Below, one piece after another: positions 15,477-62,397 of a stretch of DNA of 64,000 nucleotides. The stretch covers positions 1 to 64,000 of the forward strand of contig JAUXVI010000054.1 in assembly GCA_030680575.1 (NCBI GenBank), in the 5' to 3' direction. The first letter of the stretch is position 1; the number at the start of each line of letters is the position of its first letter. The DNA comes from Hylemonella sp. GTDB taxonomy: Bacteria; Pseudomonadota; Gammaproteobacteria; Burkholderiales; Burkholderiaceae_C. The notes beneath the pieces were generated by a model, which worked only from the letters and a program-made list of their open reading frames with translations, made no database searches and had not been told where the DNA came from. The position numbers were made by a program, and so were the translations under genes.

Positions 15477-15493
15477 TTTTTTGGGATTTGCAA

Positions 15494-16465
15494 GTGCAAA
15501 CACGTTCGCAAGGCAAAAAAATAGTGCTTCTGGGCACCGGCGGCACCATTGCCGGGACCGCCGCCAGCCCGACCGACCGTGCCTATGTCGCGGCGCAAAA
15601 GGCCGTGGCGGAGCTGCTGGCGGGGCTGCCGCTGCCGACGTCGTTCGAGCTGGTGAGTGAGCAGGTGGCGCAGATCGACAGCAAGGACATGGACCTGGGC
15701 GTCTGGCAGGCCTTGCTGCGACGCTGCCAGCACTGGCTGGCGCAGCCCGAGGTGCAGGGGCTGGTGATCACGCACGGTACCGACACGCTGGAGGAAACCG
15801 CCTACTTGCTGCAGGCGATGCTGGCACCGGCCAAGCCCGTGGTGCTGACCTGTGCCATGCGTCCGGCGAACGCCATCGACGCTGACGGTCCGCAGAATCT
15901 GCTGGATGCCTTCGCGGTGGCGGCCGAGCCGGGCGCATGCGGCGTGGTGGCCGTGTGCGCAGGCCGGATCCACAGTGCCCTTGATGTGCAAAAAGTCCAC
16001 ACCTGGCAGCTCGATGCCTTCAGCTCGGGTGAGGCCGGTGATCTGGGGCAAGTGGTGCAGGGGTGTGTTGTTTTGTGGAGAAATTGGCCTCTAGCCCTGA
16101 AGAAATATGCGCCGGATGCTATTGAAAAGATAGCGGTTCTGGCCGCTTGGCCGCGGGTCGAAATTGTGCTGAGCCATGCCGCGGCGGCAGGCGCGACCGT
16201 CGACGCGCTGGTGGCGCCGGATGTGGCGGCGCGCTTCGGGGCACCGCCGGTACGCGGGCTGGTGGTGGCCGCCACCGGCAACGGGACCCTGCATCATGAT
16301 CTGGAAGCCGCCTTGCAGCGGGCGGCGGCGCAAGGCGTGCCGGTGGTGCGTGCCACCCGTTGTGCCCAGGGCCGTGTCTGGCCGCGGCCGGGCGACGCCT
16401 GGCCGGACTCGCAGGGTTTGTCCCCGGTGAAAGCCCGGTTGGCGTTGATGCTGACTCTCGTATGA
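15494..16465 (+). CDS. ansA: L-asparaginase (type I/II fold)
   Basis: Hydrolyses L-asparagine to aspartate and ammonia; 323 aa from the GTG at 15494. The first catalytic Thr is in GTGGTIAG near the N-terminus and the second in VITHGTDTLEETAYLL; Asp of the substrate site is in the same motif. No signal peptide is seen, so it is cytoplasmic. The GTG is chosen because GGGA lies seven bases upstream; a TTG at 15488 is the alternative. Residues 197-214 (NWPLALKKYAPDAIEKIA) are encoded by a dispersed repeat inserted in a loop without breaking the frame. It shares its upstream region with lexA. Confidence 0.88.
   Translation: MQTRSQGKKIVLLGTGGTIAGTAASPTDRAYVAAQKAVAELLAGLPLPTSFELVSEQVAQIDSKDMDLGVWQALLRRCQHWLAQPEVQGLVITHGTDTLEETAYLLQAMLAPAKPVVLTCAMRPANAIDADGPQNLLDAFAVAAEPGACGVVAVCAGRIHSALDVQKVHTWQLDAFSSGEAGDLGQVVQGCVVLWRNWPLALKKYAPDAIEKIAVLAAWPRVEIVLSHAAAAGATVDALVAPDVAARFGAPPVRGLVVAATGNGTLHHDLEAALQRAAAQGVPVVRATRCAQGRVWPRPGDAWPDSQGLSPVKARLALMLTLV
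16082..16135 (-). repeat. Dispersed intragenic repeat, copy in ansA
   Basis: 54 bases inside ansA with the family hallmarks on the minus strand: GCTAT at one end, a GGCGC core, then AGGGCTAGAGGCCAATTT at the other end. On the coding strand it is read as 18 codons in the same frame as the rpoS and rlmD copies. Confidence 0.75.
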
Positions 16466-19263: not shown

Positions 19264-19442
19264 AGTCCGAGTTCCTCGTCGCTCAAGGTGCGGGCTTCGT
19301 TCTCCAGCAGCACCGGAATGCCGTCACGGATCGGGTAGGCCAGACGCGCGCTGCGCGAGATCAGTTCCTGCTTGTCGCGGTTGTATTCCAACGGCCCCTT
19401 GGTGACAGGGCAGACCAGCAGTTCAAGAAGTCGTGTGTCCAT
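19260..19442 (-). CDS. ycaR: Trm112-family small protein YcaR
   Basis: A 60-aa protein: [20 protein letters not shown], then [11 protein letters not shown], matches the Trm112/UPF0434 family. Only one Cys (residue 11, in VCPVTKG) of the zinc-ribbon set remains, as in enterobacterial YcaR. It lies between lpxK (overlap 20 bases at its start) and kdsB (overlap at its stop), the same order as in many proteobacteria. Function is unproven; the eukaryotic homologue activates methyltransferases. Confidence 0.92.
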
Positions 19443-20463
19443 GGGGCGATGATAGCCGCGCGTGCATCGCGTCTTCGAGCAGGCGGTCGAATGCGGCGAA
19501 AAAGCCCGGTTCGGGCGTGAACGCCAGCGGCACCGCCAGGGCATCGGGGTGCTGGCGCCACAGTTTGATGGCATCTTTTTCGGTGCAAATCAGGGTGTAG
19601 GCCTTGTCGGATGGGCGCAGCCAGCTGTCGAAATCATAGTGATCCGGCAGTGCGAGGGTCTGGTCCAGCGCCAGCCCCTGGGCCTGCAGCATGGCAAAAA
19701 AGGCCTGCGGTTGCGCAATGGCCGCCAGCGCCAGCAGCGGCTGGCCGTTGTGTGCCAGTGTGGCGAGTTCAACGCGGCTGCCATCGGCGCGCACCGCATG
19801 GCGGGCCAGCGCACGCTGCGAGCGGTAGCCGGTGAAGGCCGGCCGGGCGCCGCTGTGCAGCACCAGATCGACCGGGCGCGGCCAGGGCTCGCGCAAGGGG
19901 CCTGCCGGCAGCAGAAAGCCGTTGCCGGTGCCACGGTCGTCGAACACGCAGATCTCGATGTCGCGTGCCAGGCGCAGGTGCTGCAGCCCGTCGTCGCTGA
20001 CCAAGACGTGGGTGTCGGGGTGGCGTGCCAGCAGGGCGCGGGCCGCGTCGATCCGGCGCGCAGCCACGAACACGGGCACACCGGTGCGGCGCTGGATCAG
20101 GGCCGGCTCATCACCCACGTCCTGCGCCGTGCTGTCGGCCAGCACCTCGCGGCAGTCCTGGGTCTGGCGGCCATAGCCGCGCGAGATCACGCCGGGCCTC
20201 AGGCCGCGGGCTTGCAGATGCTGGACCAGCGCCATCACCACCGGTGTCTTGCCGGCGCCGCCGGCCACCACATTGCCCACCACGATGACGGGCACCGGCA
20301 GCGACTCGCGGCGGAGAAAACCGCTGAGGTACAAGCCCTGCCGGAACAGCACCAGCGCCCCCAGCAGCAGCGAGAACGGCCACAGCAACCAAGCCAGCGG
20401 GCCGCGCCGCTGCCAGCTTTGCAGCAAGGTGCGCTGCCAGGCCGGCTGCGACGGGCTGGGCAT
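19423..20463 (-). CDS. lpxK: Tetraacyldisaccharide 4'-kinase
   Basis: Phosphorylates the 4' position of the lipid A precursor at the inner membrane; 346 aa. An N-terminal membrane-associated helix (about 24-45; [18 protein letters not shown]) precedes the P-loop [19 protein letters not shown] (about 59-77). The motifs [16 protein letters not shown] and [16 protein letters not shown] are all present. It is four bases after exbD and overlaps ycaR, forming an operon for envelope functions. Confidence 0.95.
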
Positions 20464-21878: not shown

Positions 21879-23204
21879 ATGTCAGCTCCTGAATTTCCCG
21901 TTTCTTCGGCCCGCATCTGGCAAGTTGGCGCGCTGTGCCGCGCCATTGCTGATGCGCTGGATGCCCGCTTCAATCCCGTCGCGGTTCGCGGCGAGATTTC
22001 GGGCTTCTCGCGCGCATCCAGCGGGCACTGTTACTTCAGCCTGAAAGACGAATCCGGCCAGATCCGCTGCGCCATGTTCCGCCGCGCCGCCAGCCTGCTC
22101 GATTTCAGTCCGCGCGACGGCGAACTGGTCGAGGTGCGCGGCCGCCTGGGGGTGTACGAGCCCCGGGGCGACCTGCAACTGATCGTCGAATCCATGGGGC
22201 GGGCGGGGCAGGGCGCGCTGTTCGAGCAGTTCCTCCAGCTCAAGGCCAGGCTGGAAGGCGAGGGGCTGTTTGATGCCGCACGCAAGCGGGCGCTGCCGAC
22301 CATGCCACGCGCCATCGGCCTGGTGACCTCGCTCGGTGCGGCTGCCCTGCACGACGTCGTGACCGCGCTGCAGCGGCGCGTGCCGCACATCCCGGTGGTG
22401 CTGGCGCCGGCTTCGGTACAAGGCGCCAATGCGCCGGCGGAACTGGTGTCGGCGCTATCAAATTTATATCACCTGGCGCAGCAGGGACAAGGGTTGGAGC
22501 CTGATTTGGCTTCAAAACCTGTGGTTGATGTGATCCTGCTGGTGCGCGGCGGCGGCTCGATGGAGGATCTGTGGGCCTTCAACGACGAGCGCCTGGTGCG
22601 CACGATGGCGCAAAGCCCGGTACCCATCGTCTGCGGCGTCGGCCACGAGACCGACTTCACCATCGCCGACTTCGTGGCTGATCTGCGCGCGCCCACGCCG
22701 ACGGCGGCGGCCGAACTGGTGGCCGAGCCGCGCGACCTCTGGCTGGGCGCGCTGGGTCTGCTGCAGGAGCGGCTGGACGATGCGGTGACACGCGTACTCG
22801 ACAGCCAGAGCCAGCGGCTCGACCTGGCAGCCAGCCGGCTCGGGCGCCCTTCGGCGCTGGCGGCGCGCCAGCGACTGCTGCTTGCCGGTCAGGCCCAGCG
22901 CCTGCGTTTTGCCGCTGAGCACGCCACGCGCCAGTGCCGGCGCGACCTGCAACAACTGGAGCTGGCCTTGCCGCAGCAGCTGCAGCGCGGGCTGGCCGGC
23001 ATGCAGCAGCGGCTGGAGCGCGCCAGCCTGCGCCTGGGCCTGCTTGATCCGACGCTGGTGCTGCAGCGCGGATATGCCTGGCTGAGCGACGAAGAAGGGC
23101 GCACCATCACGCAGGTTGGCCAGACCTTTGCCGGCCAGGCGTTGCAGGCCACCCTTGCCGATGGCAAGGTTGATTTGACGGTGTCACCACAGGGAAAAAA
23201 TTAA
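21879..23204 (+). CDS. xseA: Exodeoxyribonuclease VII large subunit
   Basis: The large subunit of ExoVII, which degrades single-stranded DNA in both directions; 441 aa. The N-terminal OB fold ([38 protein letters not shown]) is followed by the catalytic domain ([39 protein letters not shown]) and a coiled-coil C-terminus. Residues 192-211 ([20 protein letters not shown]), just before [12 protein letters not shown], are an insert relative to the family and coincide with a dispersed repeat. It precedes sodB by 44 bases. Confidence 0.95.
22454..22508 (+). repeat. Dispersed intragenic repeat, copy in xseA
   Basis: Plus-strand copy starting GCTATCAAATTTATA, with core GGCGCAGCAGGGACAAGGG and end GGAGCCTGATTT. 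It lies in a loop of XseA and keeps the frame. Orientation relative to the gene is opposite to the ansA, rpoS and rlmD copies. Confidence 0.75.
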
Positions 23205-47866: not shown

Positions 47867-48967
47867 CTATCTAGAGATGCGATCCACAAATTCAAGCAGC
47901 TGGCTCACCAGATCGGGTTGGGTCAGCAGGTGCTGGCGTGCCCGGCGGGCGGTGTCGCCCCAGGCTGCCAGGTCCGGCGTCGGCAGCGGCTGCGCGTCGA
48001 CGCCGTTCCAGCTCCGGTGGAAGCGCCGCAACGAATCCGGGGCCTCGATCTGCGCCAGAAAAGCTTCCAGTTTGTCGTGGTGGACGTTGTCGTGCTGGGG
48101 GTAGATCTGCCAGATGAAGGGCCGGCCGGCCCACAGGGCGCGTACCAGTGAGTCCTCACCGCGCACGAAATTCAGGTCGCAAGCCCACAGCAGGTGGTCA
48201 AAGTCGTCCTGCGTCAGGTAGGGGAGGTATGAAATTGATAGCGCTTGGCGTTGATTCCATAAGGGATCACGCTGTATTTTGCTTGCAACTGTGGCCTGGG
48301 TTGCGACGCTGGCGCGGCCGGCTGCGACCAGTAGGTGCACCGGTTGCGCCTGCGCGGCGAACTGATCCAGCAGTTCCGTCAGGGCCTGGGGTTCGTAGCA
48401 GAACAGCGAGACCCAGCGCGTCTGTGGCTGCGGCGTGATGCCCAGCCGCTGCAGCCAGGCAGCGCGGTCGAAGCTGGCTTGGCGTTGCAACAGGTCGGGT
48501 TCGCGCAGCAGGCCGCCGGCGCGCAGTGTGAAGCCGGGGTAGAAGAAATACTTGCTCAGACCGGCGCCGGGGCCATGCATGACCGGTGACATCAGACCGT
48601 GGTTGCGTTCCACATATGGCTCGGCCGACAGGTATTCCAGGTTGATCCAGGCATATTTTTGGCCTCTAGCCCTTGTCCATGCTGCGCAAGCAGCTATGAA
48701 TTCAGGAGCAACCTCGCAACCGAAGGCTTCCACCAGCACGTCGCCGGGTGTCAGTCCGCGCAGGTCCAGCGGCTGTGTCCAGGGCCGGACTTCGACGCCG
48801 GGGCAGCCGGTGGGGGCCATCCAGTCCAAGGCGCTGGCGTCATCCACCCACAGGCGCACGCGCTGGCCGCGCCTGGCCAGCTGGCGGGCCAGGCGCCAGC
48901 AGACGCCGAGATCGCCATGGTTGTCGATGACCTTGCAGAAAATATCCCAAAGCAGGGGAGAAGACAT
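47867..48967 (-). CDS. earP: EF-P arginine 32 rhamnosyltransferase EarP
   Basis: Transfers rhamnose from dTDP-rhamnose to Arg32 of EF-P; 366 aa, GT-B fold. The start [26 protein letters not shown] holds the conserved acidic and Asn residues; the motif near the C-terminus [29 protein letters not shown] is the family hallmark with the Glu used for sugar transfer. A GTG start at 48982 is possible. Residues of the kind [17 protein letters not shown] and [18 protein letters not shown] are repeat-encoded inserts. It is divergent from uvrC by 26 bases. Confidence 0.93.
48231..48290 (+). repeat. Dispersed intragenic repeat, degenerate copy in earP
   Basis: GAAATTGATAGCGCTTGGCG, a core, then AAGGG and an end GCTGTATTTT, the most divergent copy of the family. 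It keeps the earP frame and is read in a different frame from the ansA, rpoS and rlmD copies. Confidence 0.5.
48656..48704 (-). repeat. Dispersed intragenic repeat, second copy in earP
   Basis: The minus strand, which is also the coding strand here, reads AATTCATAGCTGCTTGCGCA, then GGACAAGGGCTAGAGGCC and AAAA. This is the canonical orientation, kept in frame in earP (residues of [13 protein letters not shown]). Confidence 0.75.
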
Positions 48968-48993
48968 GCCGGGATTGTCCACAATACGGACCC

Positions 48994-59017: not shown

Positions 59018-60034
59018 ATGACAAAACGCTCCCTTCAAGGCCCAGGCAAGGTAACGCGTCCAGTGGCAGCGGAGGATGAGGCAAATCAGGCCCCCGACCT
59101 TGAAAATACTGCGCCATTAGCTCCTGATTTAATAGCAATTGGCCAGGTGCCGACTGCCCTGACCGGTGTTGAATTCGCCGGCGAGGCAGGGGATGCGCTC
59201 TCGGCCTATTTGCGCCATGTGCGCCGCACCGAGCTGTTCACGCCCGAGCAGGAGTACGAGACGGCGACGCGTGCCCGTGCCGGCGACTTTGCCGCGCGGC
59301 AGAGCATGATCGAGCACAACCTGCGCCTGGTGGTGAGCATCGCCAAGTTCTACCTTGGGCGCGGTGTGCCGCTGTCGGATCTGATCGAAGAGGGCAACCT
59401 CGGCCTGATGCACGCCATCGACAAGTTCGAGCCTGAGCGCGGCTTTCGTTTCTCCACCTACGCCACCTGGTGGATCCGCCAGTCGGTTGAACGCGCGCTG
59501 ATGCTGCAGGGGCGGGTGATCCGCCTGCCGGTCAATGTGGTGCGCGAGCTGCAGCAGGTGCTGCGGGCACGCCGCGCCTTGGAAAACGATCCGGCGTTCC
59601 ATGAGGCCCGGCCTGACGGGGTGCGCGTGGAAGACGTGGCCAATTTCCTGGGGCGCGATGTCAACGAGGTCGCTGAATTGCTGGCGCTGGCGGAAACGCC
59701 GAAGTCACTTGACGCCACGATGGACCGCTCGGAAAGCGAGCAGACGCTGGGCGAGTCCGTGGTGGACGAGCTGGCGCTGGACCCCAGCGGCGTGACGCAG
59801 GCGCATGAAGTGGAGCGCTTGCTGGAAGAGTGGTTGCACAGCCTGTCGGTGCGCGAGCAGGAGATTCTCGAAGGCCGCTTTGGCCTGCACGACCGCGAGC
59901 CGGAAACGCTGGATGTGCTCAGCCACCGCCTGGGCCTGACGCGCGAGCGGGTGCGCCAAGTGCAGAACGAAGCATTGCTCAAACTTAAACGTTACTTGGC
60001 GCGCCGCGGTATCACGCGCGAGGCGCTGCTCTGA
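59018..60034 (+). CDS. rpoS: RNA polymerase sigma factor RpoS
   Basis: The stationary-phase/general stress sigma factor, 338 aa. Region 1.2-2.4 is conserved ([73 protein letters not shown]), then regions 3 and 4 ending in [14 protein letters not shown]. Residues 23-40 ([18 protein letters not shown]) come from a dispersed repeat in region 1.1, before the conserved core. Position in surE-pcm-nlpD-rpoS is standard; a promoter inside nlpD is usual in this order but I cannot define it here. Confidence 0.96.
59084..59137 (-). repeat. Dispersed intragenic repeat, copy in rpoS
   Basis: 54 bases in codons 23-40. The minus strand reads GCTATTAAATCAGGAGCTAA, a GGCGC core and an end GGGGCCTGATTT. Read on the coding strand as 18 codons in the same frame as the ansA and rlmD copies. 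Confidence 0.75.
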
Positions 60035-60960: not shown

Positions 60961-62397
60961 ATGACAGATTCAGTTTCTCCCAACCCCGGTTCCCCTGCAG
61001 ATGCCCTGCTGATCGAGTCGCTCGATATCGAGGCCCAAGGCATTGCCCACCGCGCTGACGGCAAGGTGGTGTTTGTGGAAGGCGCCTTGCCCTTCGAGCT
61101 GGTGAGCGCCCAGGTCAATCGCAAGAAAAACAACTGGGAACAGGCCACCGTGACGGCCGTGCACCACCAGTCGGCCCAGCGTGTCACGCCGGGTTGTCCG
61201 CATTTCGGCCTGCATGCCGGCGCTTGTGGTGGCTGCAAGATGCAACACCTGCACGTCAGTGCCCAGGTGGCCATCAAGCAGCGCGTGCTGGAAGACAACC
61301 TCTGGCATCTGGGCAAGGTGCGGGCCGAGAGCATTCTGCGGCCGATCGAAGGGCCGGCCTGGGGCTACCGTTACCGTGCCCGCCTGTCGGTGCGCCATGT
61401 GCGCAAGAAGGGCACAGTGCTGGTGGGCTTCCACGAGCGCAAGAGCCGCTATGTGGCCGACATGGAAGTGTGTCCGGTCTTGCCGCCCCATGTCAGCGCC
61501 ATGCTGATGCCCTTGCGCGAACTGATTGGCTCGCTGGAAGCGATTGAGACCTGCCCGCAGATCGAACTGGCCTGTGGCGATGCCGTCACCGCGCTGGTGC
61601 TGCGTCATCTGGAACCCTTGAGTGAGGGTGACTTGGCCCGGCTGCGCGCCTTTGCCCAGGCACATCCTGGCGTGCAGTGGTGGCTGCAGCCCAAGGGGCC
61701 GGACACCGTGCACCTGCTGGACGAAGAGAGCGCCTTGCAACTGGCCTATGCCTTGCCGGAGTTCGGCATCACCATGCCGTTCAAGCCGACCGATTTCACC
61801 CAGGTCAACCCCCACATCAACCGCGTGCTGGTGGCACGCGCATTGCGCTTGCTGGATGCACAAAAGACGGAGCGCGTGATTGACTGGTTCTGCGGCCTGG
61901 GCAATTTCACGCTGCCGATTGCAACCCAGGCGCGCGAGGTGCTGGGGATCGAGGGCAGTGAGGCCCTGGTGGCGCGCTCCCGCGAGAATTACATGAAAAA
62001 TCGGGCTTCAGCCCTTGATGGTCGTGCGCTGGCAGCTACTGATTTTGTAGCGCGCAACCTGTTCGAGATGACGCCTGAGTGGCTGGTGCAAGACGGCGTG
62101 GCCGACAAGTGGCTGGTCGACCCACCGCGCGAAGGGGCCTTTGCCCTGGCCAAGGCGCTGGCCGATTTGCATCAGCAAAAGATCGATCCGTCAGCCAATC
62201 CACCCACGGCGGGGGCCGCCGGCTGGACGCCGCCGCGACGTATTGTCTATGTGAGCTGCAACCCGGCGACGCTGGCGCGCGACGCGGGGCTGTTGGTGCA
62301 TCAGGCGGGATATCGTTGCGTCGCGGCCGGTGTGGTCAACATGTTCCCGCACACGGCCCATGTGGAGAGCATGGCGGTGTTCGAACTGGACGCTTGA
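60961..62397 (+). CDS. rlmD: 23S rRNA (uracil-1939-C5)-methyltransferase RlmD
   Basis: Makes m5U1939 in 23S rRNA with SAM; 478 aa. An N-terminal TRAM domain (about 15-70) and a cysteine cluster for [4Fe-4S] ([21 protein letters not shown]) precede the SAM fold ([19 protein letters not shown]) and the catalytic Cys in [20 protein letters not shown] is also typical. Residues 347-364 ([18 protein letters not shown]) are encoded by a dispersed repeat placed in frame after the SAM-motif helix. Confidence 0.95.
61999..62052 (-). repeat. Dispersed intragenic repeat, copy in rlmD
   Basis: 54 bases in codons 347-364. The minus strand reads GCTACAAAATCAGTAGCTGC, CAGCGC, CATCAAGGGCTGAAGCC. Same frame and orientation as the ansA and rpoS copies. 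Confidence 0.75.

Follow-up and report, generated by a model that had tools for sequence, protein, structure and literature searches.

A long dyad-and-arm DNA motif of Comamonadaceae genomes that appears mostly to overlie native codons and is probably read by a protein

Described repeat systems and the motif family

The uptake sequences of Pasteurellaceae (USS) and Neisseriaceae (DUS) have cores of 9–12 bp, USS occurring at a density of about 1 per kb, and the RPE of Rickettsia are genome-wide repeats of 100–150 bp within open frames. The motif described here, which has 7 sites in the window (the whole stretch of DNA that was analyzed, 64,000 nucleotides) and consists of 54 bp that extend to 64 columns, resembles USS and DUS in that its many copies occur in both orientations and in spacers as well as genes, mostly without added length, in that genera differ in dialect and some lineages are without the motif, and in its strong consensus; as with those systems, it is over-represented genome-wide, in genes and spacers and on both strands. 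It differs from them in having 54–64 columns with a 17-bp dyad and 57 bits of information in place of a short core, in being rarer than USS (about 1 per 6–12 kb), and in that some of its sites gained length. Because its length and information are far greater, and an uptake role would be putative, we have not filed it as a USS or a DUS. With the RPE it has in common that it is a genome-wide repeat in open frames, but it is shorter, was without an insert at the sites compared and showed no hairpin by covariation. It is also unlike the extragenic hairpins of REP/REPIN with RAYT, given that 40 of 137 copies with flanks lie in frame inside genes and its half-sites are independent.

In the part of PMC1626085 considered here, USS are described as having flanking segments about a helical turn apart, and Redfield et al. 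took the mostly gap-free alignment of the encoded proteins as an argument against an origin of USS by insertion. The BRE, according to the part of PMC3110155 considered, are found in Bordetella, Polaromonas, Delftia, Acidovorax and others, some of them in coding sequences; they have 69% GC and 75–91 bp in Bordetella, are often tandem in variable number, and reach at most 29 repeats per genome in a context that is only moderately conserved. On that description, the motif is like BRE as a repeat with some copies within coding sequences, and unlike BRE in its 54–64 columns and in its copies in the window, which have 43–54% GC and are never in tandem. Two motif pairs given in Table 7 of PMC5217627, GCTTAT-N5-AAGCG in Acidovorax ebreus (114 copies) and ATAGCT-N22-CAAAAG in Polaromonas naphthalenivorans (125 copies), probably touch the motif family. 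In the portion of that paper considered, the pairs are two short words, mostly intergenic, presented as potential novel motifs; neither a full motif nor an overlay on proteins nor a function is given. Columns 25–40 of the dialect of a second genus (genome G170, see below) accommodate the A. ebreus pair, and few divergent spacers are a feature of both (4 of 107 for the A. ebreus pair, PMC5217627, same portion); in 800 kb of G170 this pair gave 26 matches, of which 11 were in register with a matrix site and 15 were not; the P. naphthalenivorans pair was absent from every sequence scanned. Among the repeats sought in PMC2755013, the part considered reports CRISPR only. No description of the full motif was found in the literature searched, namely titles and abstracts, with subscription papers mostly outside the scope.

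A first-pass annotation of the window had grouped six copies as one family, and all six were present, 0–5 nt from where it had placed them. They scored 43.7 to 63.6 bits (E 3.8e-16 to 1.6e-10) with a covariance model in the 64-kb window, bit scores that are inflated because the same six copies were in the 18-sequence training set. BLAST with the ansA copy as sole query also found the family elsewhere in the genome (best match 80% over 55 nt, E 1e-7), and with a 64-column weight matrix derived from genome copies the window sites scored 40.3 to 69.1, the next-best place being at -10.0. The seventh window site, in lpxK, lies outside the training set and was absent from the earlier list. A covariance-model search of the draft source genome yielded at least 150 copies, all with E < 1e-3, in agreement with the proposal that the family is real, and 133 of the 150 are exactly 54 nt long. 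Site density suggests roughly 320–370 copies per genome, based on 7 sites in the 64-kb window or on 33 sites (score ≥12) in 390 kb of C. delicatus. Three copies at G000:C20:253, 2278 and 4916 follow near-identical gene ends within 5 kb, as if gene and site had been duplicated.

Motif anatomy, window sites and distribution

Columns 1–17 form the dyad, GCT[AC][TC]-N-R-W-W-W-Y-N-[AG][TG]AGC around a W centre, and an arm reaches to about column 64 with the blocks CGC (24–26), AAGG (36–39), GGC (46–48), ATTT (51–54) and AA (62–63), the 57 bits being those of 54 columns. T3 and A15 were invariant in 126 copies, and A or T was present at column 9 in 125 and at column 52 in all 126 of them, in DNA of ~65% GC; both columns were A/T in 100% in G170 also. 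The W blocks near columns 9, 52.5 and 62.5 are ~43 and ~10 bp apart, near whole helical turns, a spacing that is suggestive only. Another W block near column 30 in the source genome is not kept in G170, whose dialect has TT at 27–28 and GCG at 38–40. In both genera tested, variation in one half of the dyad is independent of the other half (Fisher p 0.72 to 1), a pattern to be expected of a protein dimer site but not of a hairpin. Overlapping inverted site pairs occur in G170 at fixed offsets of 40 and 47 nt (e.g., 1288857/1288897, 2573320/2573360 and 806988/807035), and the head-to-head pairs at offset 47 have the 17-bp dyad in common.

All seven window sites lie within genes. The site in ansA (gene at 15488–16465, plus strand) spans 16071–16134 on the minus strand (54-bp copy 16081–16134; matrix 69.1, 63.6 bits) in element frame -1, with its dyad core at 16118–16134. 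The lpxK site (19577–19640, minus strand; matrix 40.3, 22.1 bits) is in element frame +2 of a gene on the minus strand (19423–20463), and that in xseA (22454–22517, plus strand; 54-bp copy 22454–22507; matrix 63.3) is in element frame +1 of a gene on the plus strand (21879–23204). Two sites in opposite orientations, ~0.4 kb apart, lie in earP (47867–48982, minus strand): site 1 at 48226–48289 on the plus strand (54-bp copy 48226–48279; matrix 49.7; element frame -2) and site 2 at 48646–48709 on the minus strand (54-bp copy 48656–48709; matrix 61.6; element frame +0). The site in the N-terminal part of rpoS (gene at 59018–60034, plus strand) is at 59073–59136 on the minus strand (54-bp copy 59083–59136; matrix 52.9; element frame -1); Rhodoferax rpoS loci also bear a site, e.g., L160 with 49.7 bits. 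The rlmD site, at 61988–62051 on the minus strand (54-bp copy 61998–62051; matrix 65.6; element frame -1) of a plus-strand gene (60961–62397), is common to Rhodoferax L160 (57.5 bits) and Polaromonas L213 (50.5 bits).

The 40 in-frame copies of the source genome were equally divided between sense and antisense (20 each) and used frames -1 (14), +0 (14), +1 (6), -2 (4) and -0 (2), in counts that leave out the 13 of 150 copies that were without a usable locus. Only frame -1 is open in the consensus, joined by +0 if the variable part is without TGA, and these two frames account for 28 of the 40; in the remaining frames the consensus has stops, TAG within ATAGC and within CTAG. The common frame that the first-pass annotation had seen in the ansA, rpoS and rlmD copies is thus genuine, and is explained by the consensus stop codons that close other frames. 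The copies not in frame were flanked by co-oriented (54), convergent (15) or divergent (3) genes, or had unclear flanks (25).

Matches were found across genera, in line with the similar short repeats that the first-pass annotation had mentioned for other Comamonadaceae. Nine of 27 named genomes had at least 145 matches (Curvibacter PD_MW3, C. delicatus, GWA2_64_110 and six Rhodoferax), another Rhodoferax had 139, Polaromonas C04 had 134 and five more had 30 to 110. The other 11 had at most 11 matches, including Hylemonella with 4 and C. gracilis and C. lanceolatus with 1 each; in the model search there was no match in PAE-UM, Variovorax, Pseudorhodoferax, two Caenimonas, Curvibacter HBC61 and two of three Ramlibacter, the third of which had 53. 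Across a sample of the family, 100 of 299 genomes and 56 of 135 genera had a match, and 33 genera have a genome with at least 10 among the best 19 matches scored. Since the covariance model used (R1) was trained on Curvibacter copies, low counts in other genera may be dialects; genome G050, for example, had 11 model matches yet a good lpxK site (42.1).

The chromosomal spread was assessed in G170, a complete chromosome of a second genus, using 40 evenly spaced 20-kb stretches (800 kb). There were 126 sites scoring above 25, and a reversed-sequence control gave none above 0. The replichore and strand counts were 25, 32, 31 and 27, with 11 more sites near the origin outside the tally, and the dispersion index was 0.68 (lower p 0.06). 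A signal of the KOPS/Chi-like or matS-like kind was rejected, there being no strand or ori/ter pattern in the 40 stretches of this one complete chromosome. Three of the 40 stretches were without any site, and all three carry mobile genes, which were read only in the zero-site stretches (17 reading frames scanned, several of them mobile-type): one has a phage integrase, a Mu-type transposase and a Gabija-like gene pair, and the other two have ParB_N with an integrase core and the conjugation genes TrbI and TrbL, respectively. The gene pair, at L430 5227–9587, encodes an AAA_15 protein with an OLD-like TOPRIM and a UvrD helicase, which by their domains we take to be a Gabija-like defence.

The motif is also not confined to chromosomes, given the strong sites on plasmids of Diaphorobacter sp. 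HDW4A and Rhodoferax antarcticus (L395 2501–2564, L396 480–543 and 2995–3058; 79.1, 53.8 and 68.4). A full site (L394 2989–3052; 56.4) was present on the Escherichia coli plasmid NZ_CP022165.1 in a DUF1010 cassette, presumably gcuF/orfF, that sits between dfrA12 and aadA2 in a class 1 integron. The motif matched 1764 plasmid records, and most among the 40 matches listed name a DUF1010 gene; the cassette may have come from a motif-bearing Comamonadaceae chromosome. A phage origin was rejected, since the phage collection had a single matching record, whose label was Salmonella enterica. Also rejected as trans factors were ComEC and a Y1 transposase, neither of which discriminated: ComEC was in 25 of 26 genomes, motif-rich and motif-poor alike, the one without a match (G042) being motif-rich, and Y1_Tnp was in 26 of 26, with and without the motif (one each in 24, two in G036 and G042).

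Length comparisons and constraint at shared sites

The first-pass annotation had read each coding copy as an 18-residue insert, and no clean 18-residue insert was found at any site examined. Its own proviso, that relatives should not have the same residues at these places, fared in two ways: relatives do in part have them, which goes against insertion, and the family itself is nonetheless real. Of 65 Comamonadaceae orthologues of RlmD, 46 had a site region of equal length, in 15 it was shorter by 1–4 residues and in 4 it was longer by 8. EarP, AnsA, XseA and RlmD were aligned with orthologues from as many as 13 genomes of the genus and 12 from other families, and none of the relatives covering the site (the AnsA row of G006 was without coverage) was 18 residues shorter. 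At one of the two EarP sites the region was equal in eight same-genus genomes and 2 to 6 residues shorter in another five; most genomes of other families were 4 residues shorter there. At the AnsA site most relatives differ by -1 to -3 residues. The source is longer at the RlmD site than 10 of 11 other-family genomes (by 7–11 residues), at the XseA site than 21 of 23 genomes (by 7–15 residues), and at the other EarP site (48226–48289) than eight same-genus genomes (by 11 residues); as this site is within -1 to +5 residues of nine other-family genomes, its difference looks like a loss in the same-genus relatives.

A motif-free relative, Curvibacter sp. PAE-UM (G015; 800 kb without a copy, highest matrix score 0.9), allowed 29 of the 137 copies to be anchored. 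Nine in-frame copies differed from it by -6, 0, 0, 0, 0, +3, +27, +39 and +42 nt, none by +54; these include ansA (+3), xseA (+27), earP site 1 (+39), earP site 2 (0), rlmD (0) and the C19:5141 copy (+42). A further copy, C41:28913 (+89 nt), is in frame by a looser rule and was set aside because the alignment puts it at the gene end. For comparison, among 356 random coding positions 224 showed no length difference, 22 were longer by at least 24 nt and none was longer by exactly 54, against which three of the nine in-frame copies had gains of +27 to +42 nt. The 19 non-coding comparisons ranged from -282 to +71, and two were exactly +54, which is what a clean insertion or deletion would give. 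No target-site duplications were noticed by eye in the comparisons with C. delicatus and PAE-UM, and the motif ends are unlike each other, with GCTAY at one and ATTT and AA at the other. At the places in PAE-UM matching the spacer copies G000:C33:93590 and C24:64285 there is a 17-bp dyad-like sequence alone, perhaps a remnant or an older core motif. Judged by these alignments, most coding copies compared appear to lie over native codons rather than to be inserted, and substitution into existing sequence would fit lpxK, both earP sites, ansA and, within the genus, rlmD. An insertion element was rejected for most coding copies compared, which have no net insertion.

The lpxK site, which overlies the segment of LpxK flanked by the conserved residues PDH and TEKDA, could be compared in 30 genomes that, unlike the rlmD positives, were not picked by model score. 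At the orthologous place the matrix scored 29.4 to 52.6 in 15 genomes, 4.5 in G044 and -35.6 to -76.1 in 14. The segment is 26 residues long in 25 of the 30 genomes, both motif-bearing and motif-free at this place and including G020, which is of another family; three genomes have 25 residues, one has 27 and G003 has 34. On an LpxK tree built without the motif segment, presence and absence required 2 label changes, and 0 of 500 shuffles were as low. G003, G009, G012, G013, G015 and G018 are without the site and are nested among positives on well-supported branches (100/99, 99/96 and 99/94), so the likeliest history would be that the ancestor of this clade had the lpxK site and that it was lost by substitution. 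The six genomes are motif-poor, not all motif-free, with 0, 0, 0, 0, 5 and 13 matches.

Between the source and C. delicatus the sites are static. When 138 copies were queried against the fetched stretches, 22 aligned across the site (one single-flank alignment is uncounted), and all 22 of these comparable sites were occupied, at matrix scores of 32.9 to 72.5 and with no net length change inside the element. Identity in 12 non-coding pairs was 337/372 at strong columns and 131/180 at weak columns, and in coding pairs it was 284/310 and 122/149, respectively. In rlmD of 20 positive relatives, third codon positions were more conserved inside the site (0.69) than outside (0.59) and amino acids less so (0.64 versus 0.79), and third-position conservation inside the site was 0.29 in 45 other relatives, a comparison that is partly circular because the positives were picked by model score.

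Candidate explanations

We consider it very likely that the motif is a DNA signal read by a protein and not an insert, and we put at only a little under an even chance the fuller reading in which this signal is also an uptake-sequence-like mark of self DNA. The sites would then be one population of a long double-stranded signal made up of dyad and arm; a putative sequence-specific protein would sit as a dimer on the dyad and make contacts along the arm, and a biased process would hold the sites at consensus, so that with the loss of the reader protein or of the process the sites would decay together. The role would be that of USS and DUS, with uptake and recombination of marked kin DNA favouring better matches in place. 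An active mobile repeat is disfavoured because it should enter islands, lengthen genes and shift places between species, which the motif mostly does not do in the samples compared. Counting against the uptake-like reading are the information content, far above that of known uptake cores, the gains in three of nine in-frame copies and the longer XseA and RlmD, the two +54 spacers, the sites on plasmids, and ComEC, whose presence does not follow the motif. That the motif represents a third independent system of uptake or self-recognition outside Neisseriaceae and Pasteurellaceae, ~60 bp long and dimer-read, with dialects across ~30 genera of one family, lost whole with its reader and driving codon and residue choice in lpxK and rlmD, is a tentative proposal, to which we give somewhat less than an even chance.

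The same DNA signal might instead be a chromosome-organizing or nucleoid-protein site, for folding, segregation or the distinction of own from foreign DNA, which is kept by selection for binding and not by uptake. Such a site, which we regard as possible but rather unlikely, would go well with a dyad of the protein type, with the chromosome-wide spread and its low dispersion index, with the empty G170 stretches that carry mobile genes, and with the loss of the lpxK site in a clade of so few matches per genome. Two points stand against it: the single chromosome examined showed no strand or ori/ter pattern, and the information content of 57 bits greatly exceeds the roughly 14 bits (an estimate) needed for ~330 places, an excess that suggests drive more than binding alone.

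Alternatively, a mobile element of the MITE or REP type, possibly moved by the Y1 transposase, could have spread long ago in an ancestor; its copies would since have become fixed and in part co-opted as protein-coding sequence. The very strong consensus and exact length, the two +54 spacers and the gains at three of nine coding copies, the longer RlmD of the source relative to other families and the Y1_Tnp gene in every genome examined are all as expected from such a history. We nevertheless find it improbable, since most coding copies compared have no net insertion, the LpxK segment is of equal length in another family, the three stretches with mobile genes have no site, all comparable sites are static between two species, the dyad is without covariation, and the Y1 gene is present equally in motif-free genomes.

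It is very doubtful that the motif acts at the level of RNA, as a terminator or stabilizing hairpin that also falls in genes. The scarcity of divergent flanks relative to convergent and co-oriented ones and some tail-to-tail site pairs in G170 speak for it, but copies in genes are evenly sense and antisense, the consensus RNA folds at -0.53 kcal/mol, the 18 copies folded together show 0 compensated pairs, and Rfam at gathering thresholds gave no match at the window copies. The RNA hairpin was rejected on this weak fold, the dyad without covariation and the absence of an Rfam family at the window copies; the dyad of the small palindromic element whose RNA fold had been of interest in the first-pass annotation does not act as a hairpin. 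Lastly, a selfish palindromic insert in proteins like the RPE, suggested there as a mobile palindrome and matched by the genome-wide copies within reading frames, is refuted for the sites compared by the lack of a clean 18-residue insert, the fixity of 22 of 22 sites between two species and the absence of hairpin behaviour, and we give it next to no credence.

If the reading as a protein-read DNA signal is correct, a large group of environmental bacteria would have a genome-wide DNA signal of which we found only two short fragments described, and this signal would have moulded the sequence of conserved proteins. Repeats found in frame within genes, it should be cautioned, need not be inserts. 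The family would also offer a natural experiment on the origin of such signals, their divergence into dialects and their disappearance, and the comparison of motif-rich with motif-poor sister species would be a route to the reader protein.
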